From positions 248,001-312,000 of the forward strand of contig NZ_CP022191.1 in assembly GCF_003111685.1 (NCBI RefSeq): DNA of 64,000 bases, written 5' to 3'. Below the pieces are notes generated by a model. It had not been told where the DNA came from, ran no database searches, and saw only the letters and a list, made by a program, of their open reading frames with translations. This DNA comes from Alloyangia pacifica (GTDB lineage Bacteria; Pseudomonadota; Alphaproteobacteria; Rhodobacterales; Rhodobacteraceae). Below, in pieces: positions 10,561 to 41,737 of this stretch. Position numbers and translations under genes: made by a program. The stretch's first letter is position 1. The number at the start of each line of letters is the position of its first letter.

Positions 10561-10582
10561 GCGTCTGACGCGCAAGGCACGG

Positions 10583-24556: not shown

Positions 24557-24697
24557 TCCGGCCACCCGCGCACAGGGCCTGCGCTTGGGCAAACAGCCGC
24601 CCGGCTTGCGGGCCCTGCCCCCGAATGACTAGCTATGGCTCAAACGGGCCCGGCAGAGGGGGCTTTCCGCTGCCGCCGCAGCCCAAGGAGTATCGCT

Positions 24698-25717
24698 ATG
24701 AAGAAGATCGGCTTCCTGTCCTTCGGACATTGGTCCCCGCAACGCGGCTCGGCCACCCGCACCGCCTCGGACGCGCTGCTGCAGGCCATCGACCTGTCGG
24801 TCGCCGCCGAGGAGCTGGGGCTCGACGGCGCCTATTTCCGCGTCCACCACTTCGCCCGCCAGCACGCCAGCCCCTTCCCTCTGCTCGCCGCCGTCGGCGC
24901 GCGGACCAAGAAGATCGAGATCGGCACCGGCGTCATCGACATGCGCTACGAGAACCCGCTCTACATGGCCGAGGATGCCGGCGCCGCCGACCTCATCAGC
25001 CAGGGACGGCTGCAACTCGGCATCAGCCGCGGCAGCCCCGAGCAGGTGGTCGAGGGCTGGCGCTACTTCGGCTATGCCCCGGAGGAGGGCGAGACGGATG
25101 CGGACCTTGGCCGCCGCCACGCGCAGGTCTTCCTGCAGATGCTCGAGGGCCACGGCTTTGCCGAGCCGAACCCGCGCCCGATGTTCCCCAACCCGCCGGG
25201 CAAACTGCGGCTCGAGCCGCATTCCGAGGGGTTGAAGGATCGCATCTGGTGGGGCGCAGGCTCCAACAAGACCGCCGAATGGGCCGCCATGCTGGGGATG
25301 AACCTGCAAAGCTCGACGCTCAAGGATGACGAGACCGGCGAGCCCTTCCACATCCAGCAGGCGCAGCAGATCCACGCCTACCGCGAGGCGTGGAAATCGG
25401 CGGGCCATGCGCGCAAGCCGCGGGTCTCGGTCAGCCGCTCGATCTTTGCGATCACCAGTGACGAGGACCGGATGTACTTCGGCTCCGGCGGCAAGGAAAA
25501 GGACTCGGTGGGCTTCATCGAGCAACAGCGCTCGATCTTCGGCCGCTCCTATGCCGACGAGCCCGACAAGCTGATCGAGCAGCTGAAGGCCGACGAGGGC
25601 ATCAGAGAAGCCGACACGCTGTTGCTGACCATCCCGAACTCGCTGGGGGTCGATTACAACGCCCATGTGCTCGAGAACATCCTGACCCACGTCGCCCCCG
25701 CCCTCGGCTGGCGCTGA
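24698..25717 (+). CDS. LLM-class (bacterial luciferase-like) flavin-dependent oxidoreductase
   Basis: 339 aa, a luciferase-like TIM barrel. Recognisable segments are AEELGLDGAYFRVHHFARQ near the N-terminus, KIEIGTGVIDMRYENPLYMAEDAGAADLISQGRLQLGISRG, and WWGAGSNKTAEWAAMLGMN. Such enzymes use reduced FMN or F420 to oxygenate or oxidise small molecules. It starts with AAGGAG upstream and ends before a stable hairpin, so it is probably monocistronic. It is not a clear RutA or alkanesulfonate monooxygenase, and no flavin reductase gene is adjacent. Confidence 0.88.
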   Translation: MKKIGFLSFGHWSPQRGSATRTASDALLQAIDLSVAAEELGLDGAYFRVHHFARQHASPFPLLAAVGARTKKIEIGTGVIDMRYENPLYMAEDAGAADLISQGRLQLGISRGSPEQVVEGWRYFGYAPEEGETDADLGRRHAQVFLQMLEGHGFAEPNPRPMFPNPPGKLRLEPHSEGLKDRIWWGAGSNKTAEWAAMLGMNLQSSTLKDDETGEPFHIQQAQQIHAYREAWKSAGHARKPRVSVSRSIFAITSDEDRMYFGSGGKEKDSVGFIEQQRSIFGRSYADEPDKLIEQLKADEGIREADTLLLTIPNSLGVDYNAHVLENILTHVAPALGWR

Positions 25718-25731
25718 GCCGCATCCTACCG

Positions 25732-25761
25732 CATCGCCCGGACCTAACGCCGGGCGATGCC
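25732..25761 (+). terminator. Hairpin after the LLM oxidoreductase
   Basis: A perfect 11-bp stem (GCATCGCCCGG / CCGGGCGATGC) with an 8-nt loop lies 14 bp after the stop. There is no T-run, so termination is likely but not certain. Confidence 0.55.
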
Positions 25762-25931
25762 GGCAGAACTGTCCCCCCTCCCCTCTCCCCTGCGCACCCA
25801 AGCCCGCGAAATCCCGCCCCAAGGGTGCGGCACCGACGCGCGCATCCCGGATTTCCGGTGCGGAACCTCTCACATTCGCGTGCAAATGCCGCTAAGGCGT
25901 CGCGCAGAGAGAGTCTTCCCAGGAGAGAGCA

Positions 25932-27209
25932 ATGTCATATTTCCCCCGATGGCGCGTCGGCACGGGTCAGGTGATCATGCCGGACGAGCGCCTGCCCGGC
26001 GCGGCCTCGGTTCCGATGGGCATCCAGCACCTGCTGGCCATGTCCGGCTCGACCATCGTCGCCCCGATCCTGATGGGCTTCGATCCCAACGTCGCGGTGT
26101 TCTTCTCGGGCATCGGCACGCTGCTCTTCTTCATCATCACCGCGGGCCGTGTGCCGAGCTACCTCGGCTCCTCCTTCGCCTTCATCGCGGTGGTGCTGGC
26201 GGTGCTCGGGCAAGAGGGCGCGACCATCGCCCATGCGCTCGGCGGGATCATCGCTTGCGGCGCGCTCTACGCGCTGATCGGCCTGATCGTCATGGCGGTC
26301 GGCTACGGATGGGTGGAAAAGCTGATGCCCCCCGTCGTGACCGGCACCATCGGCATCGCCATCGGCCTCAACCTCGCGCCGGTCGCCGTGGACCAGCTCA
26401 ACGCCTTCGGCTCCCCCACCCCCGCGCATCTGACGATCGCGCTGCTGACGGTGCTCTGCATGGCGATGGTCTCCTGCTACGGCCCCTCGGGCACGCGGCG
26501 GCTGTCGGTCCTGCTGGCGCTGGTCTTCGGTTACGCGCTGGTGCTGCTGCTGGGCAACGGGCTGGGAATCATGCCGGGCATCGACTTCTCTGCGGTCGGC
26601 ACGGCGGATTGGTTCGGCCTGCCACGGTTCCAGACACCCGAGTTCCACTGGTCCGCGATCACCCTCATTGCCCCGGTCGCCATCGTGCTGGTCGCCGAGA
26701 ATCTCGGTCACATCAAGGCGCTGGGGGCGATCACCGGCAAGGACATGGATCCCTACATCGGCCGCGGCTTCTTCGCCGACGGGCTGGCGACCATGGTCGC
26801 GGGCTCGGGCGGCGGCACGGGTGTCACCACCTACGCCGAGAACATCGGCGTCATGGCAATGACCAAGGTCTACTCGACGCTGGTCTTCGTGATCGCCGCC
26901 ATCGTTGCGATCTGCCTCGGGCTCTCGCCTAAGTTCGGCGCGCTGCTGCAGACGATCCCGGCGCCGGTGCTGGCGGGTCTGTCGGTCGCGGTCTTCGGGC
27001 TCATCGCCTCGGCCATGGCGCGAATCTGGATCGAGAACCGGGTGGATTTCTCGGATCCGCGCAACCTCTTCACCGCAGGCATCGCGCTGATTTTCGGCGC
27101 CGGGGACTTCACGCTGCATCTCGGCGATTTCGCGCTTGGCGGTATCGGCACATCTACGCTGGCGGCGCTGCTGCTCTATCAGCTGCTCGGCATCGGCCGC
27201 GAAGCCTGA
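25932..27209 (+). CDS. NCS2-family uracil/xanthine-type permease (RutG/UraA-like)
   Basis: 425 aa with about 12-14 membrane segments. NCS2 motifs are present: GIQHLLAMSGSTIVAPILMGFD at the start, PSYLGSSFAF in TM3, the substrate-binding IALVAENLGHIKA-type segment (VLVAENLGH), and GSGGGTGVTTYAENIGVMAMTKV in TM10. Relatives carry uracil, thymine, xanthine or urate with protons. AGGAGAG precedes the start. It is monocistronic with a strong terminator. Its neighbourhood, near a RutR-type operon on the other strand, makes a pyrimidine-like substrate attractive, but the two are separately transcribed. Confidence 0.92.
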   Translation: MSYFPRWRVGTGQVIMPDERLPGAASVPMGIQHLLAMSGSTIVAPILMGFDPNVAVFFSGIGTLLFFIITAGRVPSYLGSSFAFIAVVLAVLGQEGATIAHALGGIIACGALYALIGLIVMAVGYGWVEKLMPPVVTGTIGIAIGLNLAPVAVDQLNAFGSPTPAHLTIALLTVLCMAMVSCYGPSGTRRLSVLLALVFGYALVLLLGNGLGIMPGIDFSAVGTADWFGLPRFQTPEFHWSAITLIAPVAIVLVAENLGHIKALGAITGKDMDPYIGRGFFADGLATMVAGSGGGTGVTTYAENIGVMAMTKVYSTLVFVIAAIVAICLGLSPKFGALLQTIPAPVLAGLSVAVFGLIASAMARIWIENRVDFSDPRNLFTAGIALIFGAGDFTLHLGDFALGGIGTSTLAALLLYQLLGIGREA

Positions 27210-28695: not shown

Positions 28696-29079
28696 TCAGC
28701 CCCGGCGCAGCGCCAGCGCCTCGACCTCGACAAGGAATTCCGGGCGGGTGAACCCAGAGACGATCATCAGCGTCGAGGCCGGCTTCACATCGAGATCGGC
28801 GCAGGCGCGGTCGCGGGCGGCCATGTAGCCCTGCATGTCCTCGCGCCGGGTTACAAAGGCCGAGAAGCGCAGCACGTCCGAGAAATCCAGCCCATCCTCG
28901 GCAAGGATTGCCCGCACCGCCTCGAAGCAGAAATCGGCCTGCGCCTCGACACCGTCCGGGATCGCGCCGTCGGGGCGCAGCGCCAGCTGGCCCGAGGTCA
29001 CCACCACCGGACCGGCGGCGATGCCGTGCGAATACTGGCCGAAGGGCGCGGCGATGCTCTTGGGGGCAAGCGGTTTCAT
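28696..29079 (-). CDS. RidA/YjgF/RutC-family protein lacking the catalytic arginine
   Basis: 127 aa, a full-length chorismate-mutase-like Rid fold. It shows GQYSHG at 14-19, TSGQLAL and the C-terminal VEVEALALRR. In RidA the segment PARS carries the arginine that anchors the substrate carboxylate; here it reads P100-A-S-T, so that Arg is absent while Glu120 is kept. This places it in the arginine-less Rid subgroups, which do not deaminate 2-imino acids. It is the last gene of the nine-gene operon and overlaps the TetR gene by 4 bp. RutC in uracil catabolism is a Rid protein, which fits the operon theme. Confidence 0.88.
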   Translation of the reverse strand: MKPLAPKSIAAPFGQYSHGIAAGPVVVTSGQLALRPDGAIPDGVEAQADFCFEAVRAILAEDGLDFSDVLRFSAFVTRREDMQGYMAARDRACADLDVKPASTLMIVSGFTRPEFLVEVEALALRRG

Positions 29080-29702
29080 CGGGTCCGTCCTTCGTCTTTC
29101 AGTCCGGCGCGGGCAAGAAAGAGCTGCACCGCCTCCGCCGCGATGCGCTCGAAATCCATCTCGGCTCCGGGATCAACGCCCAGCACGCGGCGGCTCTGGA
29201 GTTCGTAATCGGCATAGTGCTGGGTCACCGCCCAGATGTTCATCATGAAGAGCAGCGGGTCGACCGGGGTCATCCGCCCCTCGTCGACCCAGCGCTGGAT
29301 CACCGCCGTCGCCTCGCGCACCGAGGCGTGCAACCCCTCCCATTTACCGCCCATCTCGGGCGCGCCGCGCCCAAGTTCCTGCAGGAACAGCCGCGAGGCT
29401 TCGGGGCAGTCGAGCGCCAGCCGCAGCTTGAGCCGCACGTAACCGGTGATCACCTCGGCAGGATCGTCGGACTCGCCCACGAAGAAGATGTCGCGCCACT
29501 GCCCGATGATGCCATCTAGCACCTCGCGGTAGAGGTCCTCTTTCGAGGTGATGTAGTAATGCAGCTGCGCCTTGGTGATCCCCGCGGCCTTGGCAAGCTG
29601 CTGCGTGGAGGTTCCCGACAGACCGGTGCTGGCGAATTCGCGTAGCGCCGCCTCGCGGATGGCGTCGTGGATTTCCTTACGCTTCAGACGTGCGGCGCTC
29701 AT
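29076..29702 (-). CDS. RutR-like TetR-family regulator
   Basis: 208 aa. The N-terminal HTH is TSTQQLAKAAGITKAQLHYYITSKEDLYREVL. The ligand domain resembles E. coli RutR closely in pattern: GYVRLKLRLALDCPEASRLFLQE, and TPVDPLLFMMNIWAVTQHYADYELQ. RutR binds uracil or thymine and recognises TTGACCA-N2-TGGTCAA. A matching ACCA-N2-TGGT core sits upstream of the first gene of this operon (36494-36503). The gene is embedded between the flavodoxin-fold oxidoreductase (26-bp overlap) and the RidA gene (4-bp overlap). It probably controls the whole operon in response to a pyrimidine-like ligand. Confidence 0.88.
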   Translation of the reverse strand: MSAARLKRKEIHDAIREAALREFASTGLSGTSTQQLAKAAGITKAQLHYYITSKEDLYREVLDGIIGQWRDIFFVGESDDPAEVITGYVRLKLRLALDCPEASRLFLQELGRGAPEMGGKWEGLHASVREATAVIQRWVDEGRMTPVDPLLFMMNIWAVTQHYADYELQSRRVLGVDPGAEMDFERIAAEAVQLFLARAGLKDEGRTR

Positions 29703-30321
29703 CGCTCTTCCTCTGGATTGCCGGTCCGCCGAACCGGGACATGCGGGTGCCGACCTTTGCGAGAAAGGCCTTCAGGTCCCGTGGTTTGCGGTGGTTCATG
29801 TCGTGTAGCTGCAACCATGTCACGCGGCAACGCGGGTGAAACAAGACACGGTAGCCCCGCGCCAGCATCGAGCGCCCGGGATCGCGGATCAGCCGCAGCC
29901 ACCACCAGGGCGAGCCCGAGGTGGTGATCACCGCGAAATGGCGGATGTTCTGCAACCTGCCGGTGGCACGCATCTTGGTGGCGCTGGCGACCTCGAAGGC
30001 GACGCCGGGCAGCCAGACCCGCTCCATCCAGCCCTTGAGAATGGCGGGCGGGCCGTACATCCATGTGGGATAGACAAACACCAGCCCCTCGGCCCGGCGC
30101 AGCGCCGCGACATGCGGCGCCACGCGGGCGATCAGCCGATCGGTGTTCGAAACGTACTCGGCCCAATCCTCGGCAGAGAGAACCGGATCGAAGTTCTCGG
30201 CGTAAAGGTCGATCACCTCGACCTTGTGCCCGGCCCGCAAGAGGCTCTCGCGGGCCGTGGCGAGAAGGGCGGCCCCATAGCTTTCCCGGCACGGGTGAGC
30301 AAAAACGATCAGGACGCGCAT
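29677..30321 (-). CDS. NAD(P)H:quinone oxidoreductase-like flavodoxin-fold protein (Flavodoxin_2)
   Basis: 214 aa. It begins MRVLIVFAHPCRESYGAAL, the FMN/FAD phosphate loop of the NQO/KefF family. YPTWMYGPPAILKGWMERVWLPGVAFE follows, with the conserved aromatic and glycine residues lining the flavin. It should transfer hydride from NAD(P)H to a quinone, nitro compound or flavin. It is 17 bp downstream of the binding-protein gene and overlaps the TetR gene by 26 bp. Within the operon it could supply reduced flavin or reduce a pathway intermediate; this is inference. Confidence 0.85.
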   Translation of the reverse strand: MRVLIVFAHPCRESYGAALLATARESLLRAGHKVEVIDLYAENFDPVLSAEDWAEYVSNTDRLIARVAPHVAALRRAEGLVFVYPTWMYGPPAILKGWMERVWLPGVAFEVASATKMRATGRLQNIRHFAVITTSGSPWWWLRLIRDPGRSMLARGYRVLFHPRCRVTWLQLHDMNHRKPRDLKAFLAKVGTRMSRFGGPAIQRKSDERRTSEA

Positions 30322-30338
30322 GGCACCGCCTCTCCAGC

Positions 30339-31349
30339 TCAGTTGGCTTCGGCGGCCGTCTTGATCTCGATGCCGTGGCGCTTGTTGACGAAGGACGTGT
30401 CGGCCACCTTCGACAGATCAAGACCGCCCTCCTCGAGGATGCCGCTGTTCACCGCGGTCTCGTAGAAGGCGGCGATGCGCGCGTCGGTCATCGCGCCAAT
30501 GCCAAGCTCGAGCGCGTCGCCGCTGTCGATGATGCCAAGCTCGCGCACCTGCGCCATCTCGGCGTCCAGCTTCTCGACGGTCAGCTCGGGGTTGGCGGCG
30601 ATGATCGCCTCGTAGCCGGCGGTGTGATCCCCATAGAGGAAGGTGTACCAGCCCTCGATCGAGGCATCGACGAAGCGCTGCACCACGTCGGGGTTCTCGT
30701 CGATCATCTGCTGGCGGGTCTCGATGGTGGTGGCATAGGTGTTCCAGCCGTAATCCGCCATGAGATAGGTCGCGACGTCGGCACCCTCGGCCGCGGCGTA
30801 GAGCGGCTCGGCGGTGGCATAGGCCTGCTGCACCATCTTCTCGTCGCTGAGGAACTGCGCGAGGTTGTAACCGTAGGGGCGCACCTGCTCGTCCCGGAAA
30901 CCGAAGTCCTGCACCATCCATTTCCAGTAGGAGAACTGCCCGTCCTTGGAGAGCAGGATCTCGGGCGCGGTGGTCAGGTCCTCCCAGCTGTCGTAGGCGC
31001 CTTCATGGGCGATGAGCGCCTGCGGGTCCTTCTGGAAGATCGCGGCGACGACGGTGGTGGGGATGCCGTTGCGCACGTTGTCGAAGGACAGCAGCAGGTT
31101 GCCCGCCATCAGGAAGTCGAGCTTGCCGGCGATCAGCATGGGGCGGTTGTTCACCTGCGGGCCACCCTGACGGATCTCGACCTCGAGTCCGTATTTCTCG
31201 TAGGTGCCGTCCGCCAGCGCCTGGTAAAAGCCGCCGTGGCCGCCCTGCGCCAGCCAGTTGGTGCCAAAGACGACCTTGTCGCCGGCAAAGGCCGCAGATG
31301 CCGCGAGCGAGGCCGCCAGTGCGGTCAGGGAAACGGAGAGAGTTTTCAT
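30339..31349 (-). CDS. NMT1/THI5-like (SsuA-type) ABC substrate-binding protein
   Basis: 336 aa from ATG 31349; the longer open frame upstream overlaps the oxidase gene. The signal peptide is residues 1-22 (ending AFA). The mature part opens VVFGTNWLAQGGHGGFYQALADGTYEKYGLEVEI, the NMT1/THI5 family pattern seen in binding proteins for taurine, sulfonates, riboflavin and the thiamine pyrimidine precursor (ThiY). It should deliver its ligand to the permease and ATPase encoded upstream in the same operon. The family type favours a small, possibly heterocyclic nitrogen or sulfur compound. Confidence 0.9.
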   Translation of the reverse strand: MKTLSVSLTALAASLAASAAFAGDKVVFGTNWLAQGGHGGFYQALADGTYEKYGLEVEIRQGGPQVNNRPMLIAGKLDFLMAGNLLLSFDNVRNGIPTTVVAAIFQKDPQALIAHEGAYDSWEDLTTAPEILLSKDGQFSYWKWMVQDFGFRDEQVRPYGYNLAQFLSDEKMVQQAYATAEPLYAAAEGADVATYLMADYGWNTYATTIETRQQMIDENPDVVQRFVDASIEGWYTFLYGDHTAGYEAIIAANPELTVEKLDAEMAQVRELGIIDSGDALELGIGAMTDARIAAFYETAVNSGILEEGGLDLSKVADTSFVNKRHGIEIKTAAEAN

Positions 31350-31378
31350 TTCTTGGGGTCCTGTTGGTTGGGGTCTTG

Positions 31379-32770
31379 TTATGCGCTGCGCGCCATCTCG
31401 GGGTGCCAGCCCCGGGTCTTGCCCGGGTTCATCAGGCCATAGGGGTCGGCCCGTTTCTTGAAGTCGATCTGCGCCGTGTCGATGGTCTTCATGCCGCCAT
31501 CCTCGATGGTCACCACATGCGGGTCGAAGATCGTGCAGCCGTCCGCTTCCAGCTCGGCGATCAGCGCGTACATCGCGTCCTTGCCGCGGAAGCGCACCAG
31601 CGGCAGGGCGAAGATCTGGATCTCGCCGTCCTGCCGCGCCATCTCGTGGTGCCAGAACATTTCGTCGCCGTAGCGCTCCATCTGGCGCATCACGAGGGCC
31701 GGATCGAAGGGGCGCGGGTAGGCGACCTGCAGGTAGGTCCAGCCCTTGTCGACCTTCAGCGCCTGCAGCGTGGTGTGGTTCCAGCCACATTCATAGGCGG
31801 GCTGCAGGCGGTTCTCGTGGATCTCCTCCATGGTCATGGCAAAGGAGATGCTCGCGCCCTCGGCCTCGGCCCGGGCGCGGAAGCGGTCCATGTCCGTCGG
31901 CGCGACCATGGCGAAGACCGCGTCGCGGTCCTCGGGGAAATAGCCCTCGAACTTGCGATAATAGGGCGCGAAGCGGCGCTCGACTGGGGTCAGCAAGTAG
32001 CAATCGAGGCCATCTTCCTGCGCGGCGGTGGCAAAGCGCAGCGCCTTGTCGTAGCCGTCGAAAAGCGCGGCGGTGTGCAGCCAGTCGGTCGAGGGGGTGA
32101 GCGCCAGCCCCACCTCCAGCACGATGCCGTTGGTGCCATAGGCGTGGTGCACCTTCTGCACGTCGGGCCCATGCAGCTCGATCACCTGCGGCTCTTCCTC
32201 GAGCGTGAGTACCTTGAGGTAGGTGAGGTTGCCCTCGTCGCGCAGCATGCCGTGGCGCAGCGAGCCGATACCGCCCGAGCCGCCCGCAATGAAGCCGCCG
32301 ATGGTGGCGAGGCTGCGGGTCGAGGGGTACATGGTCAGCTCCTGCCCGGTCTCGCGCGAAGCGTCGTCAAGCTTCGACATGCGGATGCCCGCCTCCACAT
32401 GGGCGTGGCCGGGGGTGATCTCGAGGATCCGATTCAGCCGTGTCAGGTCGATGACCAACCCGCCGTCGAGCGGCACGCATTGCCCGTAGTTGCCGGTGCC
32501 GCCGCCGCGCAGGGTGACGGGCACCTTGTGGCGGGCGGCCGCCGCGGCAACGCGGATCACCTCGTCCTGATCCTGCGGGATCACCACCAGCTCGGCGCGC
32601 TTGTCCTTCAGCTCGGCGTCGAGGATCGGGCTGTACCAGAAGTAATCCTTGGACCGCGCCTCGAGCGCGCGTTCGTCGTCGTAAAAGCGCAGCCCGTCGA
32701 GGTCCTGCCGCAGGGCGGCGAGCGCCTCGGCGTGGCGGCCCTTGGGCGCGGCCAGTTGCGTGTCGGTCAT
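31379..32770 (-). CDS. FAD-linked oxidase (GlcD/PCMH type)
   Basis: 463 aa with an N-terminal PCMH FAD-binding domain. VTLRGGGTGNYGQCVPLDGGLVIDL is the pyrophosphate-binding segment and TIGGFIAGGSGGIGSLRHGML the flavin-contacting loop. A C-terminal substrate domain ends DPYGLMNPGK, as in glycolate/lactate and vanillyl-alcohol oxidase relatives. It should oxidise an alcohol, hydroxy acid or amine. It overlaps the deaminase gene by 4 bp and lies 29 bp upstream of the binding-protein gene, so it is firmly part of the uptake-and-degradation operon. Confidence 0.87.
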   Translation of the reverse strand: MTDTQLAAPKGRHAEALAALRQDLDGLRFYDDERALEARSKDYFWYSPILDAELKDKRAELVVIPQDQDEVIRVAAAAARHKVPVTLRGGGTGNYGQCVPLDGGLVIDLTRLNRILEITPGHAHVEAGIRMSKLDDASRETGQELTMYPSTRSLATIGGFIAGGSGGIGSLRHGMLRDEGNLTYLKVLTLEEEPQVIELHGPDVQKVHHAYGTNGIVLEVGLALTPSTDWLHTAALFDGYDKALRFATAAQEDGLDCYLLTPVERRFAPYYRKFEGYFPEDRDAVFAMVAPTDMDRFRARAEAEGASISFAMTMEEIHENRLQPAYECGWNHTTLQALKVDKGWTYLQVAYPRPFDPALVMRQMERYGDEMFWHHEMARQDGEIQIFALPLVRFRGKDAMYALIAELEADGCTIFDPHVVTIEDGGMKTIDTAQIDFKKRADPYGLMNPGKTRGWHPEMARSA

Positions 32771-33936
32771 GCGAGGTCTCCGGAGGTCTCGGGAATGGGG
32801 GCACCGCCGCGCCAGACAGTACGCGCCGCGCGAGGGCGGTTCAGCGCATCGTCGAGCCCGGTGGCGGCGATATGGATGAAGTCGGCGGGGGCGCCGGCCT
32901 TGAGCGCAAAGTCATGTCCCAGCCAGCGCGCCGGGGTCTCGGTGACGCTGTCGAGCCATCCGGCGGGATCAAGATGCCCGGCGAGCACGGCCATGCGGTA
33001 GACGTCGAAAAGGTCGTAATCGCCCTGCGGGTAGAACGGATCGCAGACGTTGTCCGAGGCCAGCATGACCGGCATTCCTGCCGCGCGCGCTTCGTGGATG
33101 GGCGCGAGGCCCCGCAGCCGCGGGGTGCGATCGGGCGTGGCGTCTTGCAGGAAGGCGTTGGTGGTCGGCAGGGTGCAGAGCGCCATGCCCGCCTCCGCCG
33201 CCCGGCCCAGCAGATCGGCCACCGCGCCCTCCGGGCGCACCGAAAGCGAACAGCAGTGGCCCACCAGCACCCGGCCCGCCATCCCGCGCGCCTCGGTCTC
33301 CTGCAGGATTGCATCGAGCCCCTGCGCTTCCGGGTCGAGCCCCTCGTCGACGTGGAAATCGAGCTGCAGGTGGTGTGTCTCGGCAAGGTCGAAGACCCTG
33401 CGCAGCTTTGCCGGGATATCCTCGTTGCGGTAGATGAAGGCCCCGAGCACGGCGCCGGTCCCCGCGATTTCCTGCGCAATCCTCGCGCCGACCTCGGGCA
33501 TGTCATCCAGCGGCGTCAGCGTGGCAAGCTGCAGATCGACCCGGCCGCGCCATTCCTCGGCCAGCTCGCGCAGCACCGGCAGCGCCGCGGGCACCCCGGC
33601 CTCGGTCCAATCGACGTGGCTGCGCATCGCCTTGGTGCCATTGGCAAAGGCGCGGCGCAGCCCGCGCGCGGCGCGCTGGCGCAGGTCGCCCGCCGTCCAG
33701 TTCGGCTTGTCCCCGGCCATCAGCTCTATCGCCTCGTGCAGCGACTGCGGGCGGCTCGGCACGCGCGCGGCGGTGAAGGTCTTGTCGAGGTGGACATGCG
33801 CGTCGGCAAAACAGGGCAACAGCAGGCCGCCCCCCTGCCCCTCCGACGGGGTCAGCGCGGCGATGCGCGCCCCCTCCAGCGTCACGTCCCAATACCCGTC
33901 GCGCCCAGCCAGCGCGACGCCGTTCAGCGTGGTCAT
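32767..33936 (-). CDS. Cytosine-deaminase-like amidohydrolase
   Basis: 389 aa, amidohydrolase superfamily of the CodA type. Metal and catalytic motifs are DAHVHLDKT (H47, H49), FHVDEGLDPEAQG, LVGHCCSLS and MLASDNVCDPFYPQGDYDLFDV. The last closely follows the CodA SDNVRDPWYP motif. It probably deaminates an amino-pyrimidine or similar amino-heterocycle (cytosine, isocytosine, creatinine and triazine types are all precedents). It is 3 bp after the permease gene and overlaps the FAD oxidase gene by 4 bp. Confidence 0.87.
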   Translation of the reverse strand: MTTLNGVALAGRDGYWDVTLEGARIAALTPSEGQGGGLLLPCFADAHVHLDKTFTAARVPSRPQSLHEAIELMAGDKPNWTAGDLRQRAARGLRRAFANGTKAMRSHVDWTEAGVPAALPVLRELAEEWRGRVDLQLATLTPLDDMPEVGARIAQEIAGTGAVLGAFIYRNEDIPAKLRRVFDLAETHHLQLDFHVDEGLDPEAQGLDAILQETEARGMAGRVLVGHCCSLSVRPEGAVADLLGRAAEAGMALCTLPTTNAFLQDATPDRTPRLRGLAPIHEARAAGMPVMLASDNVCDPFYPQGDYDLFDVYRMAVLAGHLDPAGWLDSVTETPARWLGHDFALKAGAPADFIHIAATGLDDALNRPRAARTVWRGGAPIPETSGDLA

Positions 33937-33939
33937 CGC

Positions 33940-34806
33940 TCAGCCCTGCCGCTTGATTTCGCTCTCGTGCCAGTGCCCGAGGACCGCGCGCGAGAGCCAG
34001 GAGGTGGCGAGGAAGATCAGAATGCCCAGCATCGACACCAGAAGGAGCGCCGCGAACATCCGCGGGATCTCGCCCCGGAAGCTGCTTTCGAGGATGCGTG
34101 AGGCAAGGCCCGTGTTCTGCCCGGCGGTGCCGGCGACGAACTCGGCCACCACCGCGCCGATCAGCGCAAGACCCCCGGCGATCTTCAGCGCGGCCATGAA
34201 GTAGGGCAGCGCCGAGGGGATCAGCAGGTAGCGCAGGCGCTGCCACTTGGTGGCGCCGTAGAGGGTGAAGAGGTCACGCAGGTTGTGGTCGGCGCTGCGC
34301 ATCCCGATGGCGGTGTTCGACAGGATCGGGAAAAAGGCGACGATCCAGGCGCAGATCAGCAGCGCGGCGAAGGTGCTGTCGACATAGATCAGGATCAGCG
34401 GCGCGATGGCCACCACCGGCGTCACCTGCAGGATCACCGCGAAGGGAAAGAGGCTCATCTCGATGGTGCGCGAGAGCGCAAAGACCATCCCCAGCGCCAC
34501 GCCGCCGATTATCGCAAGGCCAAGCGACAGCAGCGTCAGCTTGACGGTGAACCAGGCGCTCGACAGCAGCGAGGGTCCGTCGGTCCAGAGCGTCTCGAGT
34601 ATGAGGCTCGGTGCCGGGATCAGGTAGTGCGGGACCTCGTTGTAGCGCACGAGGAATTCCCAGAGCCCCAGCGCGCAGAGCAGCGCGGCGCAGGGCATGA
34701 GGATCTGCATCCGGCGCTCGCGGCGGGCGACGCGCAGCGCGGGGTCTTCCGAGGCGGGGGCGCTCTTCGCGGCCATGGTGACGGGGTCAGTGGTTGAGGT
34801 CGACAT
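33940..34806 (-). CDS. NitT/TauT-family ABC permease (SsuC/ThiX-like)
   Basis: 288 aa from ATG 34806, which has an AAGGGA site about 10 nt upstream; the open frame extends further into the ATPase gene. There are six or so membrane segments. The EAA-type loop is ...GATKWQRLRYLLIPSALPYFMAALKIAGGLALIGAVVAEF, typical of BPD_transp_1 permeases for taurine, nitrate, sulfonates or thiamine precursors. It overlaps the ATPase gene by 20 bp. It forms the importer with 34787-35617 and 30339-31349. Confidence 0.9.
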   Translation of the reverse strand: MSTSTTDPVTMAAKSAPASEDPALRVARRERRMQILMPCAALLCALGLWEFLVRYNEVPHYLIPAPSLILETLWTDGPSLLSSAWFTVKLTLLSLGLAIIGGVALGMVFALSRTIEMSLFPFAVILQVTPVVAIAPLILIYVDSTFAALLICAWIVAFFPILSNTAIGMRSADHNLRDLFTLYGATKWQRLRYLLIPSALPYFMAALKIAGGLALIGAVVAEFVAGTAGQNTGLASRILESSFRGEIPRMFAALLLVSMLGILIFLATSWLSRAVLGHWHESEIKRQG

Positions 34807-35617
34807 CGTCCATGGTCCCTTCGAGTGCATCCGACACGAGACGGCAGGTCTCGGCATATTCAGGCGTGGTGCGGTAGTGTTCGTCGCGGGTGGTGGCATC
34901 GGGCAGCGCGATGTCATGCACCACCCGGCCCGGGCGCGGTGCCATGACCACGACGCGGCTCGACAGGTAGACGCTCTCGAACACCGAGTGGGTGACGAAG
35001 ATGACCGTCAGCCCGTTGCGCCGCCAGAGGTTGAGCACGTCGTTGTTCAGCTTGAAGCGGGTCATCTCGTCGAGTGCCGCGAAGGGCTCGTCCATCAGCA
35101 GCAGCTTGGGCTTTGTCACCATGGCGCGGGCGATCGAGACCCGCATCTTCATGCCGCCCGACAGCTCGCGCGGGTAGCTGCCGCCAAACTTGGCAAGACC
35201 CACCATCTCGAGCGCCTCAGTCACCTGCGGCTCGGCCTGCTTGCGGTTCAGCCCGCGCAACTTCAGCGGCAGGTAGACATTGTCGAACACCGTGGCCCAG
35301 GGCATCAGCGTCGGCTCCTGGAAGACGAAGCTGACGTCACCGCCCTGCACGCCCCCCGAGGTGCCCGCACCGCCCGGCGCGTGGCCGTTGACGGTGATCT
35401 GACCCGACGAAGGCGCCAGAAGCCCCGAGATCATCCGCAGCGCCGTCGACTTGCCACAGCCCGAGGGGCCGAGCAGGCTGACGAACTCGCCCTGCCGAAT
35501 GGTGAGATCCATGTCCTGCAGCGCCAGCGTTCCGTTGTCGAAGCGCTTGAAGACGTGGGACATCTCGATCTGCGCAGCGCCCTGCACAGAGGCGTGTGCT
35601 GTGGTGTCGAGGGGCAT
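34787..35617 (-). CDS. NitT/TauT-family ABC ATP-binding protein (SsuB/ThiZ-like)
   Basis: 276 aa from ATG 35617; the longer frame upstream runs through the creatininase gene. Walker A GPSGCGKS is at 50-57, the Q-loop is FVFQEPTLMPW, the signature is LSGGMKMR, Walker B is LLLMDEPFAALDE, and the switch His is in VTHSVFE. LMPWATVFDNVYLPL and the MKMR variant are typical of the taurine/nitrate/sulfonate group. It is the energy subunit of the operon importer, 11 bp downstream of the creatininase gene. Confidence 0.92.
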   Translation of the reverse strand: MPLDTTAHASVQGAAQIEMSHVFKRFDNGTLALQDMDLTIRQGEFVSLLGPSGCGKSTALRMISGLLAPSSGQITVNGHAPGGAGTSGGVQGGDVSFVFQEPTLMPWATVFDNVYLPLKLRGLNRKQAEPQVTEALEMVGLAKFGGSYPRELSGGMKMRVSIARAMVTKPKLLLMDEPFAALDEMTRFKLNNDVLNLWRRNGLTVIFVTHSVFESVYLSSRVVVMAPRPGRVVHDIALPDATTRDEHYRTTPEYAETCRLVSDALEGTMDDVDLNH

Positions 35618-35628
35618 GGGCGGGCTCC

Positions 35629-36429
35629 TTACCAGTCGGGTTGCGTGTCGAGCCGCGACAGCGGTGCGCGGTCGATCTCGTCGAAGATGTCGAGGAGCCG
35701 GGCGACCGCGTGATCGAGCGTCGCCGCGCCCTTCTCGGCGCTGGCCAGATGGGCCTCGCCGCAGGCCCCGGCACTGCTGAGATCCTGCGTCAGCCAGGCG
35801 GGTTTTGCGGGGCCGGGCAGCGCGATCGAGGGGGTGTCCCGTGCCCAGATCTCGGCCTGCGAGGGAAAGTCGCGGGCCTCGGACATGTCGACGTTGCCGG
35901 GATCGAGCGCCAGCATCACCGAGGTTTCCATGTCGCCCGCGTGGATGCCATGGCGCAACTCGCGCTCCGAGAAGACCCCCTCGGGCATCCCGGCGGCGAA
36001 CCAGCTCAGGGCAAAGGCCATCATCTTGTGTTTCTCGCGCAGCTCCCGGGCAACGATGTCCATGGCCGGGATATTGCCGCCATGGCCGTTGAGCAGGACG
36101 ATCTTGCGCACGCCCGAGCGCGCCACGCAGGCGCCGATCTCGGTCCAGACCCGCAGCAGCGTCTCGGCCGAGAGCGTCAGGCTGCCCGGATAGGCGCTGT
36201 GCTCGTTGCTCTTGGTCACCGCCTGGGTCGGCAGGAAGACCACAGGGCTGTGATCGGGCAGCGCGCCCGCAAGACGCGAGACCACACCCTCGACCGAGGC
36301 GGTGTCGACGGACATGGGCAGATGCGGGCCGTGCTGTTCGATGGCGCCGAGCGGCAGCACCGCGATCAGCTTCTCGCGGTCGAGCGCGGCAAACTCCCTG
36401 CTGCTGTAATCCGCCCAGTATCGTTTCAT
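35629..36429 (-). CDS. Creatininase-family amidohydrolase
   Basis: 266 aa from ATG 36429. Metal ligands of the creatininase fold are in place: GAIEQHGPHLP (E31, H33), V-D42, LNGHGGN (H117) and HAGDMETS (E169). The family includes creatinine amidohydrolase, formylaminopyrimidine hydrolases (ArfB) and MftE, all of which cleave amide bonds of small N-compounds. It is the first gene of the nine-gene operon, with the RutR-type operator core about 65 bp upstream of its start. It may open a ring or remove a formyl group from the imported compound. Confidence 0.88.
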   Translation of the reverse strand: MKRYWADYSSREFAALDREKLIAVLPLGAIEQHGPHLPMSVDTASVEGVVSRLAGALPDHSPVVFLPTQAVTKSNEHSAYPGSLTLSAETLLRVWTEIGACVARSGVRKIVLLNGHGGNIPAMDIVARELREKHKMMAFALSWFAAGMPEGVFSERELRHGIHAGDMETSVMLALDPGNVDMSEARDFPSQAEIWARDTPSIALPGPAKPAWLTQDLSSAGACGEAHLASAEKGAATLDHAVARLLDIFDEIDRAPLSRLDTQPDW

Positions 36430-36840
36430 GCCCTGCTCCTTCGACAGCCCTCGCCGCACCACGGTGATTTGCGGTCTCATAGCGAATGATCAAACCATTT
36501 GGTATGAAAACGTCGGATCGGGCAAGAGAACCTAGGGTTTGCCTTGGATTTCACCGAAATGGTGCCTTCGAACTGTGCATTTTTCCGGGGCGCGTCTAGA
36601 GAACGCCGGCGAACCGAGCACACATCCGGCAGGAAACAGGGACCCGGGCGATTCGTCCGACGCGGCGTCGTGAATGCTGGGCGACTTGCTTGACTAAATT
36701 GGTTGGTTTTCCTAGAAGTCCAAACTGACCGGCGTTTCGCTCCGGCGCCCGCCGCGCCTTTCCTGCCCAATGTCCCCGCCGGCACCCGGGTGCGCCACGC
36801 CCCGCGGCCGCGCCTCCCCGCCTGACCGACGCGAGCCGCC
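36430..36840. other. 411-bp divergent intergenic region between the creatininase operon and araC
   Basis: Both promoters should lie here. Besides the ACCA-N2-TGGT near-palindrome at 36490-36507, I note TTGACTAAATTGGTTGG at 36690-36706, an imperfect resemblance to the same operator class. The open frame on the minus strand across 36477-36926 has no ribosome site or recognisable sequence and is not called. Confidence 0.6.
36490..36507. promoter_or_regulatory. RutR-type operator candidate upstream of the creatininase operon
   Basis: The near-palindrome TCAAACCA-TT-TGGTATGA has 7 of 8 matching positions per arm. Its core ACCA-N2-TGGT equals the core of the known RutR consensus TTGACCA-N2-TGGTCAA. 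It sits about 61-78 bp upstream of the creatininase start, and the operon encodes a RutR-like regulator. Confidence 0.65.
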
Positions 36841-37752
36841 ATGACCTTCATGCCCCGCATGACATCGCAGACCCGAGCCATCAGCCCCACGCGCCCGCTG
36901 CGCTGGCGGCGCTGGGGCGCTGCCATCGCCGACGTTTGGCATGTGCATGGCGAGGCGGGCGCGGGCGGCTTCTACCGCTCACCCGACCCGCGGCTGGTGG
37001 TGTTCCTCGGCGCGCAAGTCGGGGCGCTGCGGCTGCGCACCAGCCCGCACGGGGCATGGTTGGAGGGGATCGGCGCCTTCTATATCCCCGCCGGCATGCC
37101 ACTCTGGAGCGCCCTGCCCGAAGAGCGAGACTATGCCCATCTCGACTTTCACCTCGAGGCCGGACCGCTGGCGCAGCGGTTGCGTGCCGCGGGCGGCGCG
37201 CGGCGGATGGACGAGGCGCATTTCCTCGCTGCCGAGAACCGCACCCAGCCGCTCGCCGCGCTTCTGGCCGAAGAGGTGCAGAACCCGTCCCGCCCCGACA
37301 TCATGCTCGACGGGCTGCTCTCGGCGCTGCTCTGCGAGGTGCTCGACCTTGGTGCGACCGTGGCGGAGCCGCGCCGCGGCGGTCTGCCGCCGCATGTGAT
37401 CCGAGATCTGCGCAGCCATGCCCTTTCGGCGCTGCATCGGCGGATCGAGGTGGCCGAACTGGCTGAGTTGGCGGGCCTCTCGGAAAGCTGGCTCACCCGG
37501 GCCTTCAAGCAGAGCCTCGGAACCACGCCGCAGCGCTGGCTGACACAGCTTCGGGTCGAGACGGCGATGGGATTGATGACCGACACGCCGATGGGGCTCG
37601 CCGAGATCGCCGCCGCCGTGGGTTTCGCCGACCAGGCGCATCTCACCCGCGCCTTCCGCGCCGCGCAGGGAGAGACCCCCGCCGCCTGGCGAAAGGTCAG
37701 AACGCGCGCGATTTCTTCAAATCACGGCAGTCTCGTTCAAGCGCGGCTTTAA
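36841..37752 (+). CDS. AraC-family transcriptional regulator
   Basis: 303 aa. The N-terminal half looks like a cupin-type sensor. The C-terminal hundred residues hold two helix-turn-helix units: IEVAELAELAGLSESWLTRAFKQSLGTTPQRWL, then GLAEIAAAVGFADQAHLTRAFRAAQGETPAAWR. Its position 47 bp upstream of a siderophore TonB receptor on the same strand is typical of siderophore-responsive AraC activators such as PchR or YbtA. It is divergent from the creatininase operon and could in principle also act there. A second ATG lies at 36850. Confidence 0.88.
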   Translation: MTFMPRMTSQTRAISPTRPLRWRRWGAAIADVWHVHGEAGAGGFYRSPDPRLVVFLGAQVGALRLRTSPHGAWLEGIGAFYIPAGMPLWSALPEERDYAHLDFHLEAGPLAQRLRAAGGARRMDEAHFLAAENRTQPLAALLAEEVQNPSRPDIMLDGLLSALLCEVLDLGATVAEPRRGGLPPHVIRDLRSHALSALHRRIEVAELAELAGLSESWLTRAFKQSLGTTPQRWLTQLRVETAMGLMTDTPMGLAEIAAAVGFADQAHLTRAFRAAQGETPAAWRKVRTRAISSNHGSLVQARL

Positions 37753-37799
37753 ATCCCGAGATAAATACTCGGAAAAAAATCCGTATTCTGGAACGTGAC

Positions 37800-39935
37800 A
37801 TGACAAGTACCCTCCGCCTGCCTCTTCTCGCCAGCGCCAGCCTGCTCGCCCTCGCCGGGGCCGCACAGGCGCAATCCACCGCAGACCTCTTTGACCTGGG
37901 CGAGCTCGTGCTCGAGGGCGGCTACGATCCGTCGGACCCGGTGCCGGGATATGTGGCCACCACGGCGCAGACCGCCACCAAGACCGGCACGCCGATCCTC
38001 GAGACGCCGCAGTCGATCTCGGTGATCACCGGCGAGCAGATCGAGGACCAGGGCGCGACCACGCTCGGAGACACGCTCGGCTACACCGCCGGCGTCACCG
38101 CGCAGCCCTACGGCACTGACCCGCGCTTCGACGCGCCGACGATCCGCGGCTTCAACGGCGGCAACGCCCAGTATCTCAACGGCCTGCGCCTGCTGCGGGA
38201 ACGCGGCGCGCCGTCGTTCGAGGTCTACTCGCTGGAACGTGTCGAGGTGCTGAAGGGCCCGGCGTCGGTGCTCTACGGCGCGGGGATCCCGGGCGGCGTG
38301 ATCAACCAGATCCAGAAGCGCGCCCAGTTCCTCAGCTTCGGCGAGCTCGGCGTCGGCGCCGGTGAGCCCAAGGCGACCGAGGGCTTCATCGACTACAACC
38401 ACGCCTTCAGCGGCACCTTCGCCGCCCGCGTCACCGCCGTGGCGCGCGACAGCGAGGAAGACGTGGAGGAGCTCGAGAACAGCCGCCGCTACCTCGGCCT
38501 CGCCACCCGCTGGCAGCCGACCGCGCAGACCTCGCTGCAAGTCCTCGGCGCCCGGCAGAAGGACAGCCCGATCACCCCCGCCGGTGTGCCCCATGACCTG
38601 CTCGGCGCGGCCGACGACGAGGACCTGCGCGACTTCTACGCCGGCGATCCCGGTGATGACGAGAGCGATCGCGAGATGCTCAACCTCGGCTTCGAGCTGA
38701 GCCACGAGCTGAGCCGCGACTGGTCGGTGGATGCGAACTTCCGCTACCAGAAATTCGACTGGGACTATACCGGCTTCTACGTCAACAACCCGGTGAGCGA
38801 CGGCGATACCATCACCCGCGGCGCCAATGGCACGAGCGAAGCGAGCTTCTCGCAGAACCTCGACCTGCGGCTCAACGGTCAGCTCGACACCGGCGCAGTG
38901 AACCACCGGCTGGTGCTCGGCCTCGACATGCGCCGCTACGGCATCGACGAGACCACCGACTTCCTCAACGCCGATGCGATCAGCTTCTCGAACCCTTCCT
39001 ACGGCGGCGCGAACCTGAGCGCCCCGTGGTACTCCGAGACCAATGACCTCACGCTCGAGCAGGTCGGCCTCTACATGCAGGACGAGCTCGCTTTCGGCAA
39101 CTGGCGCGCCTCGCTGGCGCTGCGCCATGACTGGGCCAGCCAGACCGGCACCGCCTCGACCTGGATGGACTGGGCAGGCGCCATCTACGAGAGCAACACC
39201 GACATCGACCAGGACGACGAGGCGACCACCGGGCGTGCCGGTCTGAGCTACGTCTACGCCAACGGTCTCGCACCCTACCTGAGCTACACCACCTCCTTCG
39301 ATCCCGAGATCGGCGTCGACAACAGCGGTACCCCCTTCGAGGCGACCGAGGGCAAGCAGTGGGAAGCCGGGGTGAAATACCAGCCGCTCGGCTTCAATGG
39401 CTTCTTCAGTGCGGCGATCTATGACCTGCGGCAGACCAACGTGAAGACCCCGGTCACCGACGACAGCGGCATCGGCGACGAGCGGCAGGTCGGCGAGGTG
39501 CACTCGCAGGGTCTGGAATTGGAAGCCTCGGTCGACCTCGACGGCGGCTGGAACCTGCGCGGCGCCTATGCCTGGAACCGCGCCGAGCAGGAGGGCGGCG
39601 ACTATGATGGCTTCGACATGCCGAACGCGCCGCTGCACAACGCCAGCCTCTGGGCGAACTACAGCTTTGCCGCTGGCTCGGCGCTGGACGGGCTCACCCT
39701 CGGCGGGGGCGCGCGCTACATCGGCGAACGCTACGGCGACGCGGCCAACCTCTACCACATGGACGACGTGACCCTTCTGGACCTGCAGGCCTCTTATGCG
39801 GTGACCGACGACATGCAGGTCTCGGTCAACGTCAGCAACCTCACCGACGAGGCCTATGTGGCCAACTGCGGCTCCTTCGGCTGCTACTATGGTGACGGTC
39901 GCACGGTTCAGGCCCGCCTGACCTACAAGTGGTGA
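37800..39935 (+). CDS. TonB-dependent siderophore receptor (ferrichrome/FhuA-like)
   Basis: 711 aa. The signal peptide is residues 1-25. A TonB-box-like GELVLEG follows, then the plug domain with ATKTGTPILETPQSISVIT and VEVLKGPASVLYGAGIPGGVIN, the standard markers of hydroxamate siderophore receptors. A 22-strand barrel should follow. Near the end are a paired cysteine loop (CGSFGCYYGDGR), also found in FhuA-like proteins, and a C-terminal aromatic residue (YKW). It takes up a ferric siderophore across the outer membrane using TonB. The 47-bp leader contains CCGAG-N7-CTCGG, perhaps the AraC target. Confidence 0.93.
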   Translation: MTSTLRLPLLASASLLALAGAAQAQSTADLFDLGELVLEGGYDPSDPVPGYVATTAQTATKTGTPILETPQSISVITGEQIEDQGATTLGDTLGYTAGVTAQPYGTDPRFDAPTIRGFNGGNAQYLNGLRLLRERGAPSFEVYSLERVEVLKGPASVLYGAGIPGGVINQIQKRAQFLSFGELGVGAGEPKATEGFIDYNHAFSGTFAARVTAVARDSEEDVEELENSRRYLGLATRWQPTAQTSLQVLGARQKDSPITPAGVPHDLLGAADDEDLRDFYAGDPGDDESDREMLNLGFELSHELSRDWSVDANFRYQKFDWDYTGFYVNNPVSDGDTITRGANGTSEASFSQNLDLRLNGQLDTGAVNHRLVLGLDMRRYGIDETTDFLNADAISFSNPSYGGANLSAPWYSETNDLTLEQVGLYMQDELAFGNWRASLALRHDWASQTGTASTWMDWAGAIYESNTDIDQDDEATTGRAGLSYVYANGLAPYLSYTTSFDPEIGVDNSGTPFEATEGKQWEAGVKYQPLGFNGFFSAAIYDLRQTNVKTPVTDDSGIGDERQVGEVHSQGLELEASVDLDGGWNLRGAYAWNRAEQEGGDYDGFDMPNAPLHNASLWANYSFAAGSALDGLTLGGGARYIGERYGDAANLYHMDDVTLLDLQASYAVTDDMQVSVNVSNLTDEAYVANCGSFGCYYGDGRTVQARLTYKW

Positions 39936-39954
39936 TCCGTTTCGCCTGACAAGC

Positions 39955-39988
39955 CGGGGCGCCGCGTCTATGGATGCGGGGCCCCTTT
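39955..39988 (+). terminator. Hairpin after the TonB receptor
   Basis: A 10-bp stem with one mismatch (GGGGCGCCGC / GCGGGGCCCC) is followed by TTTCT. It probably reduces read-through into the ABC gene 48 bp further on. Confidence 0.65.
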
Positions 39989-40036
39989 CTGCCTTTGCCC
40001 GGCAGGACCGCGCCACGACCCCTAGGAGACAGCCAG

Positions 40037-41737
40037 ATGCTGCGCCAGTTCTTCGCCTACTACCGCCCGCACATGCGGCTCTTCTGGCTCGACTTCGGGT
40101 CGGCCGTGATCTCGGGACTGCTCGAGCTGGCTTTCCCGCTGGCCATCGCCGGATTCATCGACCACCTGCTTCCCGGCGGTGACTGGACGCTGACGCTGCT
40201 CGCCGCTGTCGGGCTGGTTGTTGTCTACCTGATCAACGCGGGGCTGATGATCGTGGTCACCTACTGGGGCCACAAGCTTGGTATCAACATCGAGACCGAG
40301 ATGCGCAGCAAGGCCTTCGCGCATCTCACCAAACTGAGCTGGGGGTGGTTCGACCGCGCCGAGACCGGCAAGCTCGTGGCCCGGGTCACCCGCGACCTCG
40401 AAGAGATCGGCGAGGTCGCCCACCACGGCCCCGAGGATCTGTTCATCGCCATCATGACCTTTGCCGGCGCCTTTGGCCTCATGGCCTGGATCCACCTGCC
40501 GCTGGCGCTGATGACGCTGGTGATCGTGCCGGTCATGGTCTGGCTGATCGCCGTCTACGGCGGGCGGATGACCCAGACCTGGCAGGCCATCTACAGCCGT
40601 GTCGGCGCCTTCAACGTGCGGCTCGAGGAAAGCCTCGGCGGCATCCGCGTGGTGCAGGCCTTTGCCAACGAGCCGCACGAGCGCGCGCTCTTCGAGCAGG
40701 ACAACCGCCGCTACCGCGAGACCAAGCTCGACGCCTACCGCATCCTCGCCAAGCTCACCGCGCTGCACTACAGCGGCATGCGCATGGTGCAGGTGGTGGT
40801 GATGGTGGCCGGCGCGGGCTTCGTCTTCAACGGCACGCTGTCCGAGGGCGGCTTCGTCGGCTTCCTGCTGCTGGTCAACGTCTTCTTCCGCCCGCTCGAG
40901 AAGATCGCCGCGGTGATGGAGACCTACCCGCGCGGCATCGCCGGCTTCCGCCGCTACACCGAACTTCTGGCCACAGAGGCCGACATCACCGACGCGCCGG
41001 GCGCCATCGAGGCCCCGAGGTTTCGCGGCGAAATCACCTTCGCCCAGGTCAGCTTTGCCTATGACTGCGCGCGCGGGGTGCTGCACGAGGTCTCGCTCGA
41101 CATCCGCCCGGGCGAGACGGTGGCGCTCGTCGGCCCCTCGGGTGCGGGCAAGTCGAGCCTGATGGCGCTGCTGCCGCGGTTCTACGAGCCCACCGGCGGC
41201 GAGATCCGCATCGACGGCGTGCCGATCCACAAGATGACCCTCGCCTCGCTGCGCAGCCAGATCGGGCTGGTGTCGCAGGACGTCTTCCTTTTCGGCGGGA
41301 CGCTGCGCGACAATATCGCCTATGGCAAGCTCGGCGCCACCGAGGAGGAAATCCGCGCCGCCGTCGCCCACGCCCAGCTTGCCCCGCTGGTCGAGACCCT
41401 GCCAGAGGGGCTCGACACTGTGGTCGGCGAGCGCGGCGTGATGCTTTCGGGCGGGCAGCGGCAACGTGTGGCGATTGCACGCGTGTTCCTCAAGAACCCG
41501 CCGATCCTGCTTCTCGACGAGGCGACCTCGGCGCTCGACCGGACCACCGAGCGCGAGGTGCAGGCGGCGCTGTCGCGCTTGGCAGTGGGACGCACAACGC
41601 TGGTCATCGCCCACCGGCTCAACACCGTGCGCGACGCCGACCACATCGTGGTGCTGGAACAGGGCCGCGTGGTCGAACGCGGCAGCCACGACGTGCTGAT
41701 CGAGGCTAAGGCCGCCTACTACGAGCTGGCGAGCTGA
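40037..41737 (+). CDS. Exporter-fold ABC half-transporter (membrane domain fused to ATPase)
   Basis: 566 aa from ATG 40037. Residues about 1-320 carry six membrane segments of the type I exporter fold, and the C-terminal 230 form the ATPase. Walker A is GPSGAGKSS, the Q-loop follows in GLVSQDVFLFG, the signature is LSGGQRQR, and Walker B is LLLDEATSALD with His in IAHRLNT. It probably works as a homodimer. It follows a siderophore receptor with no binding protein or FecCD permease nearby. It could therefore export a siderophore or, like YbtPQ, import one despite the exporter fold. Confidence 0.9.
   Translation: MLRQFFAYYRPHMRLFWLDFGSAVISGLLELAFPLAIAGFIDHLLPGGDWTLTLLAAVGLVVVYLINAGLMIVVTYWGHKLGINIETEMRSKAFAHLTKLSWGWFDRAETGKLVARVTRDLEEIGEVAHHGPEDLFIAIMTFAGAFGLMAWIHLPLALMTLVIVPVMVWLIAVYGGRMTQTWQAIYSRVGAFNVRLEESLGGIRVVQAFANEPHERALFEQDNRRYRETKLDAYRILAKLTALHYSGMRMVQVVVMVAGAGFVFNGTLSEGGFVGFLLLVNVFFRPLEKIAAVMETYPRGIAGFRRYTELLATEADITDAPGAIEAPRFRGEITFAQVSFAYDCARGVLHEVSLDIRPGETVALVGPSGAGKSSLMALLPRFYEPTGGEIRIDGVPIHKMTLASLRSQIGLVSQDVFLFGGTLRDNIAYGKLGATEEEIRAAVAHAQLAPLVETLPEGLDTVVGERGVMLSGGQRQRVAIARVFLKNPPILLLDEATSALDRTTEREVQAALSRLAVGRTTLVIAHRLNTVRDADHIVVLEQGRVVERGSHDVLIEAKAAYYELAS

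Follow-up and report, generated by a model that had tools for sequence, protein, structure and literature searches.

Organization of the operon

The window analyzed here is a stretch of 64,000 nucleotides from Alloyangia pacifica (contig NZ_CP022191.1, positions 248,001 to 312,000). Between positions 28,696 and 36,429 it carries nine minus-strand genes, which look like a branch of a folate-catabolism-type cassette that is under the control of a RutR paralogue. An earlier annotation made from the letters of the window (the sequence-only reading) had placed these genes correctly. All nine open reading frames lack an internal stop codon, and the junctions from gene 1 to gene 9 measure +11, -20, +3, -4, +29, +17, -26 and -4 bases, i.e. 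gaps of at most 29 bases or overlaps. The family names given there agree with the Pfam profile matches, for which ends a few codons off were used for genes 1, 2 and 6.

Gene 1 (35629..36429) encodes a creatininase-family amidohydrolase (PF02633, 245 bits), a candidate lactam or ring-opening hydrolase. It is followed by genes for a NitT/TauT-type ATP-binding cassette (ABC) ATPase (gene 2, 34787..35617; ABC_tran), an ABC permease (gene 3, 33940..34806; BPD_transp_1), a CodA-like amidohydrolase of the PRK07583 group, which is a candidate cyclic-amidine deaminase (gene 4, 32767..33936; Amidohydro_3), and an FAD-dependent oxidase or oxygenase of the 6v42 family (gene 5, 31379..32770; FAD_binding_4). 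The remaining genes encode a THI5/NMT1-type substrate-binding protein (gene 6, 30339..31349; NMT1 (THI5)), a quinone-reductase-like flavoprotein (gene 7, 29677..30321; Flavodoxin_2), a TetR regulator that looks like a RutR paralogue (gene 8, 29076..29702; TetR_C_3, 114 bits, cut-off 25) and a Rid protein without the catalytic arginine (gene 9, 28696..29079; Ribonuc_L-PSP). An operator-like imperfect palindrome of 29 bases, CATACCAAATGGTTTGATCATTCGCTATG (36478..36506, minus strand), is located 48 bases upstream of gene 1.

Enzymes and transporter

The oxidase is homologous over its whole length to PDB entry 6v42, for which the title alone was used: 'flavin oxygenase with cofactor bound involved in folate catabolism'. 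The gene 1 product matches creatininase chains of the PDB (E 3e-17). With the curated models MftE (117 bits) and creatininase TIGR04448 (95 bits, cut-off 235) it stays below the respective cut-offs. The gene 7 flavoprotein matches quinone oxidoreductase chains with E values of 1e-18 and weaker.

For the deaminase, a score of 334 bits was obtained with PRK07583 (cut-off 403), compared to 699 bits for a Rhizobium cassette deaminase. It matches CodA chains (E 2e-35), and both the window and the Rhizobium enzyme match CodA and N-isopropylammelide hydrolases among the PDB chains. Residues H47, H49, H195, E198, H227 and D295 align with the CodA residues that we take to be the catalytic metal site, and all of them except H195 were recorded as invariant across 19 aligned sequences. 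It is not a CodA proper, with 123 bits against the PRK09230 cut-off of 483 and no Gln at the FPQ position, where Gln156 of CodA is presumably a substrate residue. In Bacillales cassettes, CodA-like deaminases with an HDD motif carry Phe in place of a His that presumably binds metal in CodA (L018 15096-16379, L020 11349-12581, L022 13009-14247, L023 7929-9185 and L024 11286-12566).

The Rid protein had been called Arg-less, and in the alignment Ser-Thr does occupy the position of Ala-Arg in E. coli RutC. The arginine is absent from the window protein and from the short cassette Rids aligned with it; it is important for imine hydrolysis by Rid proteins, according to excerpts of PMC4433059.

The best curated models for the ATPase include SaoA, taurine and nitrate types. 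The binding protein is closest to thiamin, formylaminopyrimidine and Thi5 structures (14% identity to 3ix1), which supports the pyrimidine-type binding protein fold expected from its THI5-type assignment.

Recurrence of the cassette

The distribution of the gene set was determined using the FAD oxidase as bait (E <= 1e-60 for the family and phylum searches). A scan of named genomes yielded 24 loci. The oxidase gene was found in 102 of 295 sampled family genomes, about a third, in 32 of 398 phylum genomes and in 140 plasmid records, 109 of them from Rhizobium. In total, 74 loci centred on the oxidase were mapped (L002-L025, L056-L075, L076-L085 and L141-L160). They include near-identical relatives (L002-L005), cut contigs and at least four genomes counted twice (G659, G481, G485 and one Polaromonas bin). 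A gene was counted as present above 45 bits in tblastn, a threshold that generic ABC ATPases can also pass.

The creatininase was present in 65 of the 74 loci, followed by the deaminase (63), ATPase (61), binding protein (59), permease (58), any Rid (52), the quinone-reductase-like gene (39), a TetR (18, that of L083 being a weak match to an unrelated TetR) and a RutB-like amidohydrolase (5). All six core genes were found together in 50 loci, and similarity to the window genes tracks the similarity of the oxidase (Spearman 0.62-0.85). This recurrence and the co-varying similarity bear out the proposal that import and degradation genes are inherited as a unit. ABC genes moving on their own would have spoken for the opposite, and not one of the 74 loci has the three ABC genes with the oxidase and neither creatininase nor deaminase. 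The 5.17 Mb genome of the window contains just two creatininase-family genes, so that chance comes nowhere near explaining the association; a creatininase neighbor within 20 kb would be expected by chance in less than 1% of cases.

The cassette is variable at its margins. Seven loci without any ABC gene hold the oxidase together with two or more of the creatininase, deaminase and Rid genes. Twelve loci in all lack ABC genes, and in five of these the oxidase is still accompanied by the deaminase, Rid and a TauD dioxygenase. In L016 the oxidase lies beside a different, YdcS-type ABC system, and L064 and the short contig L014 have it but no creatininase, deaminase or ABC gene. The gene order is shuffled in the six Bacillales loci, with oxidase or deaminase doubled in L018, L022, L023 and L024. 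A loose gene set for generic nitrogen scavenging or detoxification, without a single pathway, could explain why accessory genes (2-oxoglutarate (2OG) oxygenases, Rieske/VanB, a ferredoxin pair, RutB-like enzymes) differ between loci. It is nevertheless highly improbable in view of the creatininase and deaminase frequencies, which hold even with the shuffled order of the Bacillales, of the low chance expectation, and of an operator core with one exact match in the genome (see below).

L077, L078, L080 and L008 have, beside the cassette, genes for a 2Fe-2S ferredoxin and for a flavoprotein of the ferredoxin-reductase type; three of these loci lack the quinone-reductase-like gene. The ferredoxin pair and that gene are not strict alternatives; L077 has both, and L006 and L007 have neither. 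A reading of the 2OG enzyme of L085 and the TauD-type enzyme of L082 as thymine-7-hydroxylases was rejected. The best match of the former is an ethylene-forming-enzyme chain, with thymine dioxygenase fourth, and the closest relative of the latter is a 2,4-D dioxygenase; these matches are uninformative. In L017 (7439-12389, Paracoccus cavernae) the matches to creatininase, ATPase, oxidase and binding protein are all fragmented, by decay or assembly error.

The module of Salipaludibacillus keqinensis (L023, 1-18462) sits within an operon for urate degradation, between urate oxidase/hydroxyisourate hydrolase and an allantoate amidohydrolase-like gene. A purine-derived substrate of urate, xanthine or hydantoin type, with the module as an accessory purine route, would fit this position, the TauD or Rieske oxygenases beside some cassettes and a gene near the window operon which reads like a uracil/xanthine permease (by reading only). 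Such a substrate is improbable. The urate operon was encountered at one mapped locus, no systematic search having been made, and the window regulator is RutR-like. The Salipaludibacillus genome also has its own full-score allantoinase upstream, so that the module is an addition rather than a replacement, and its interpretation as a stand-in for allantoinase was dismissed.

Regulator and operator

The window TetR reaches 146 bits with the RutR equivalog model TIGR03613 (cut-off 368). The other RutR of the genome, which is 47% identical to E. coli RutR, also remains below this cut-off (222 bits). In RutR, uracil is contacted by W77, Y97 (via water), W167, Q171 and Q179 of the partner, as described in excerpts of PMC10891134. 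All five contacts are kept in the window TetR (W69, Y88, W157, Q161 and Q169). The TetRs of L084 and L143 likewise retain five and that of L141 four, compared to none in the unrelated TetR of L083. Among 14 aligned TetR sequences, the residue at RutR position 77 is replaced by Phe in L008 and by Tyr in L080. Both contact glutamines (Q171 and Q179) are replaced by glutamate in L010, L011 and L012 (genes at 7325-7942, 13431-14048 and 10344-10994, respectively), which hints, as judged from the residues, at a ligand with donor groups rather than carbonyls in this clade.

At least one TetR_C_3 protein was found in 102 of 120 family genomes. The cassette-linked TetRs (G000, G021, G062 and G106) score 97-115 bits and, among the matches listed, the non-linked ones score 134-179 bits with one exception at 32. 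From these scores the linked TetRs look like a separate RutR-type paralogue. The sequence-only reading had called the operon RutR-controlled; this holds for a paralogue of RutR with uracil contacts and an operator of its own, but not for RutR proper.

The palindrome CATACCAAATGGTTTGATCATTCGCTATG became apparent in an alignment of 15 upstream regions, from which sites of 14 operons, including that of the window, were chosen by eye. The weakest of them are L010 and L011 (31-32 bits). L078, which had been excluded from the set, then matched at 24.6 bits. With a matrix built from 7 distant loci, CATACCAAATGGTTTGATCATTCGCTATG scored 36.2 bits compared to 10.0 bits for the next distinct site in the 64 kb, and at most 8.0 bits were obtained in 5 mononucleotide-shuffled windows. 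The 19-base core has one exact match and one match with three mismatches in the genome; a reversed control pattern gave one match. Upstream scans of the LysR-linked loci L076, L079, L081, L083 and L085 and of L009, L013, L015, L019, L082 and L084 gave no operator match above 10.6 bits. The RutR-paralogue TetR and the palindromic operator of the window branch are thus both lacking in the LysR-linked Rhizobium cassettes L076 and L079. A symmetric palindrome, TTTACCAAATGGTAAA, was identified at the pyd-like locus of the genome, and TTTACCGTTTGGTAAA at its rut operon. The three share a common core and differ in their flanks. We infer that the gene 8 TetR binds CATACCAAATGGTTTGATCATTCGCTATG.

Comparison with known pyrimidine pathways

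In the A. pacifica genome RutA exceeded its cut-off only at locus C2, followed by RutB, RutC and RutD; a search for RutE at this locus gave no match. Dihydropyrimidinase exceeded its cut-off only at C1, C5 and C7 and not in the operon, and its sole match on the contig of the window (36 bits) lies outside the operon. The pyd-like locus C1 combines its own RutR and the palindrome TTTACCAAATGGTAAA with dihydropyrimidinase and NitT-type ABC genes.

The operon shares a RutR-like regulator and a Rid protein with the E. coli Rut pathway, but none of its nine genes matches RutA or RutB, and rutABCD is located elsewhere (77, 65, 71 and 41% identity, respectively). RutB-like amidohydrolases occur near the 5 oxidase loci counted above. 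With the reductive pyd pathway, as represented by C1, it shares a RutR-family regulator and NitT-type ABC genes but not dihydropyrimidinase. The operon is thus neither rut nor pyd, as had been proposed, and forms a third RutR-type or pyrimidine unit of the genome. Because rutABCD and the pyd-like locus are present elsewhere, the use of uracil or thymine probably does not require it.

For the same reason, the substrate is likely to be a new one, and it could be a monocyclic pyrimidine not handled by rut or pyd, such as the thiamine pyrimidine or a substituted aminopyrimidine, with the folate cassette enzymes shared by descent. The complete set of uracil contacts, the nearest structures of the binding protein and an oxidase only 46% identical to 6v42 would all suit this explanation. 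We consider it unlikely, although more probable than a purine: the gene set is the same as that of the cassette holding the folate-linked oxidase, and CodA Gln156, whose role is presumed as above, is not conserved in the deaminase. In ThiXYZ/formylaminopyrimidine import, thiamine salvage genes stand where the window has degradative enzymes.

Proposed pathway

The oxidases of cassettes L147, L149, L153 and L160 are 73-75% identical to 6v42, and those of two Rhizobium plasmid cassettes 65-66%. Creatininase, Rid, binding protein, ATPase, permease, deaminase and the quinone-reductase-like gene are all present in these four cassettes, so the window shares the neighboring genes of the nearest relatives of 6v42. 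On balance, we therefore favor the view that the operon imports and oxidatively degrades, under regulation, a pterin or a close 2-amino-4-oxopyrimidine heterocycle, i.e. a folate breakdown product. The 'pyrimidine-like heterocycle' of the sequence-only reading is kept as far as the pyrimidine ring is concerned; the title of 6v42 indicates a pterin, a fused pyrimidine, and not a simple one. The term 'undescribed' was too strong, because the oxidase family includes 6v42. No description of the gene set as a pathway and no paper behind 6v42 was found in a search of the open-access literature.

Substrate, reaction order, enzyme roles and inducer are proposed from homology as follows. The THI5-type binding protein and the ABC transporter would import the compound, and the CodA-like amidohydrolase would exchange the exocyclic amino group for oxygen (a pterin-to-lumazine type of change). 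Ring oxidation by the 6v42-family flavoenzyme would follow, and the quinone-reductase-like flavoprotein may deal with a quinonoid intermediate or with flavin in its reduced form. Opening of the resulting cyclic amide would fall to the creatininase-like enzyme, and Rid would remove an enamine product. Pterin contains a 2-amino-4-oxopyrimidine ring, deamination of which gives a uracil-like dione, and such a dione would suit a RutR-type pocket. The TetR would act as a repressor at the palindrome as long as this pocket is not filled by a pyrimidine-2,4-dione-like ligand, which could be the substrate, its deaminated product or a ring fragment. RutB/biuret-hydrolase-like enzymes near sister cassettes (122-142 bits with both models, cut-offs 370 and 378; four of five scanned) would fit a later ureido intermediate.

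Several observations weigh against a pterin. The window oxidase is only 46% identical to 6v42 (the same holds in the comparison with the 6v42/6v43 cassette), and the cassettes nearest to 6v42 show no TetR of the window type; the substrates of the two may therefore differ. The RutR pocket has the size of uracil and could be too small for a bicyclic ligand. Of the 120 family genomes surveyed, seven have an oxidase at least 53% identical, and only four of these carry a linked TetR of the window type; it is missing in G013, G033 (where the contig is cut) and G108. L084 has a RutR-like TetR yet no strong operator match. For the window and Rhizobium deaminases, no PDB chain named pterin deaminase was found at E <= 0.001. 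Judged by its sequence, Rid, lacking the arginine of known imine hydrolases, may fail to hydrolyze by the known route.

Boundaries and neighboring genes

A class 1 fructose-bisphosphatase gene (28396-27422) is separated from the Rid gene by 299 bases. It lies about 120 bases from the operon in L002 but more than 2.4 kb away in L003-L005 and was for this reason not accepted as a tenth gene. Divergent from the operon, an AraC gene starts at 36841. No sigma-70 site was obtained from a promoter scan, and a terminator scan gave a single terminator-like site, within the Rid gene.

By reading, positions 36841-41737, which may be a siderophore locus, hold genes for an AraC-type regulator, a TonB-dependent receptor and an ABC exporter; the AraC and TonB-dependent receptor genes are kept next to the operon in L002-L005. 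Past the fructose-bisphosphatase, the plus strand (24635-27209) appears, by reading only, to encode an LLM-class flavin oxidoreductase and a uracil/xanthine-type permease. Genes like these two are also found nearby in L002.

Biological implications

In Rhizobium leguminosarum UPM791, excerpts of PMC7950203 name RLV_169 ('Cytosine deaminase like') and RLV_170 ('Putative FAD-binding dehydrogenase') of plasmid pRlvA as pea-specific bacteroid proteins. The plasmid has one oxidase match, directly after the deaminase (cassette L167, 7788-10314), and the cassette position predicts a gene number of about 176. By order and position, RLV_169 and RLV_170 appear to be the deaminase and oxidase of this cassette, which would place both enzymes among the pea-specific bacteroid proteins of this strain.

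The window regulator represents a case in which the sensor pocket is conserved and operator and target genes are unlike those of the other RutR of the genome. Tentatively, and as a possibility that we rate below even, the operon and its sister cassettes could form a complete pterin pathway from import to ring opening, in which the RutR paralogue reads the deaminated ring and the Gln-to-Glu clade has a changed ligand.

According to excerpts of PMC9513972, folic and pteroic acid are substrates of pterin deaminase, and how pteroic and deaminopteroic acid are broken down once the pterin has been deaminated is posed there as an open question. The pterin deaminase/carboxypeptidase G route described (Variovorax F1, Arad3529) deaminates the pterin ring early, as proposed for the operon; the terms ABC transporter, gene cluster and oxidoreductase are absent from the main text of that paper. 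If true, a complete pterin pathway would fill in the steps that are missing beyond this deamination. Because transporter, regulator, operator and enzymes all belong to one nine-gene unit, the question of pterin decomposition becomes testable.

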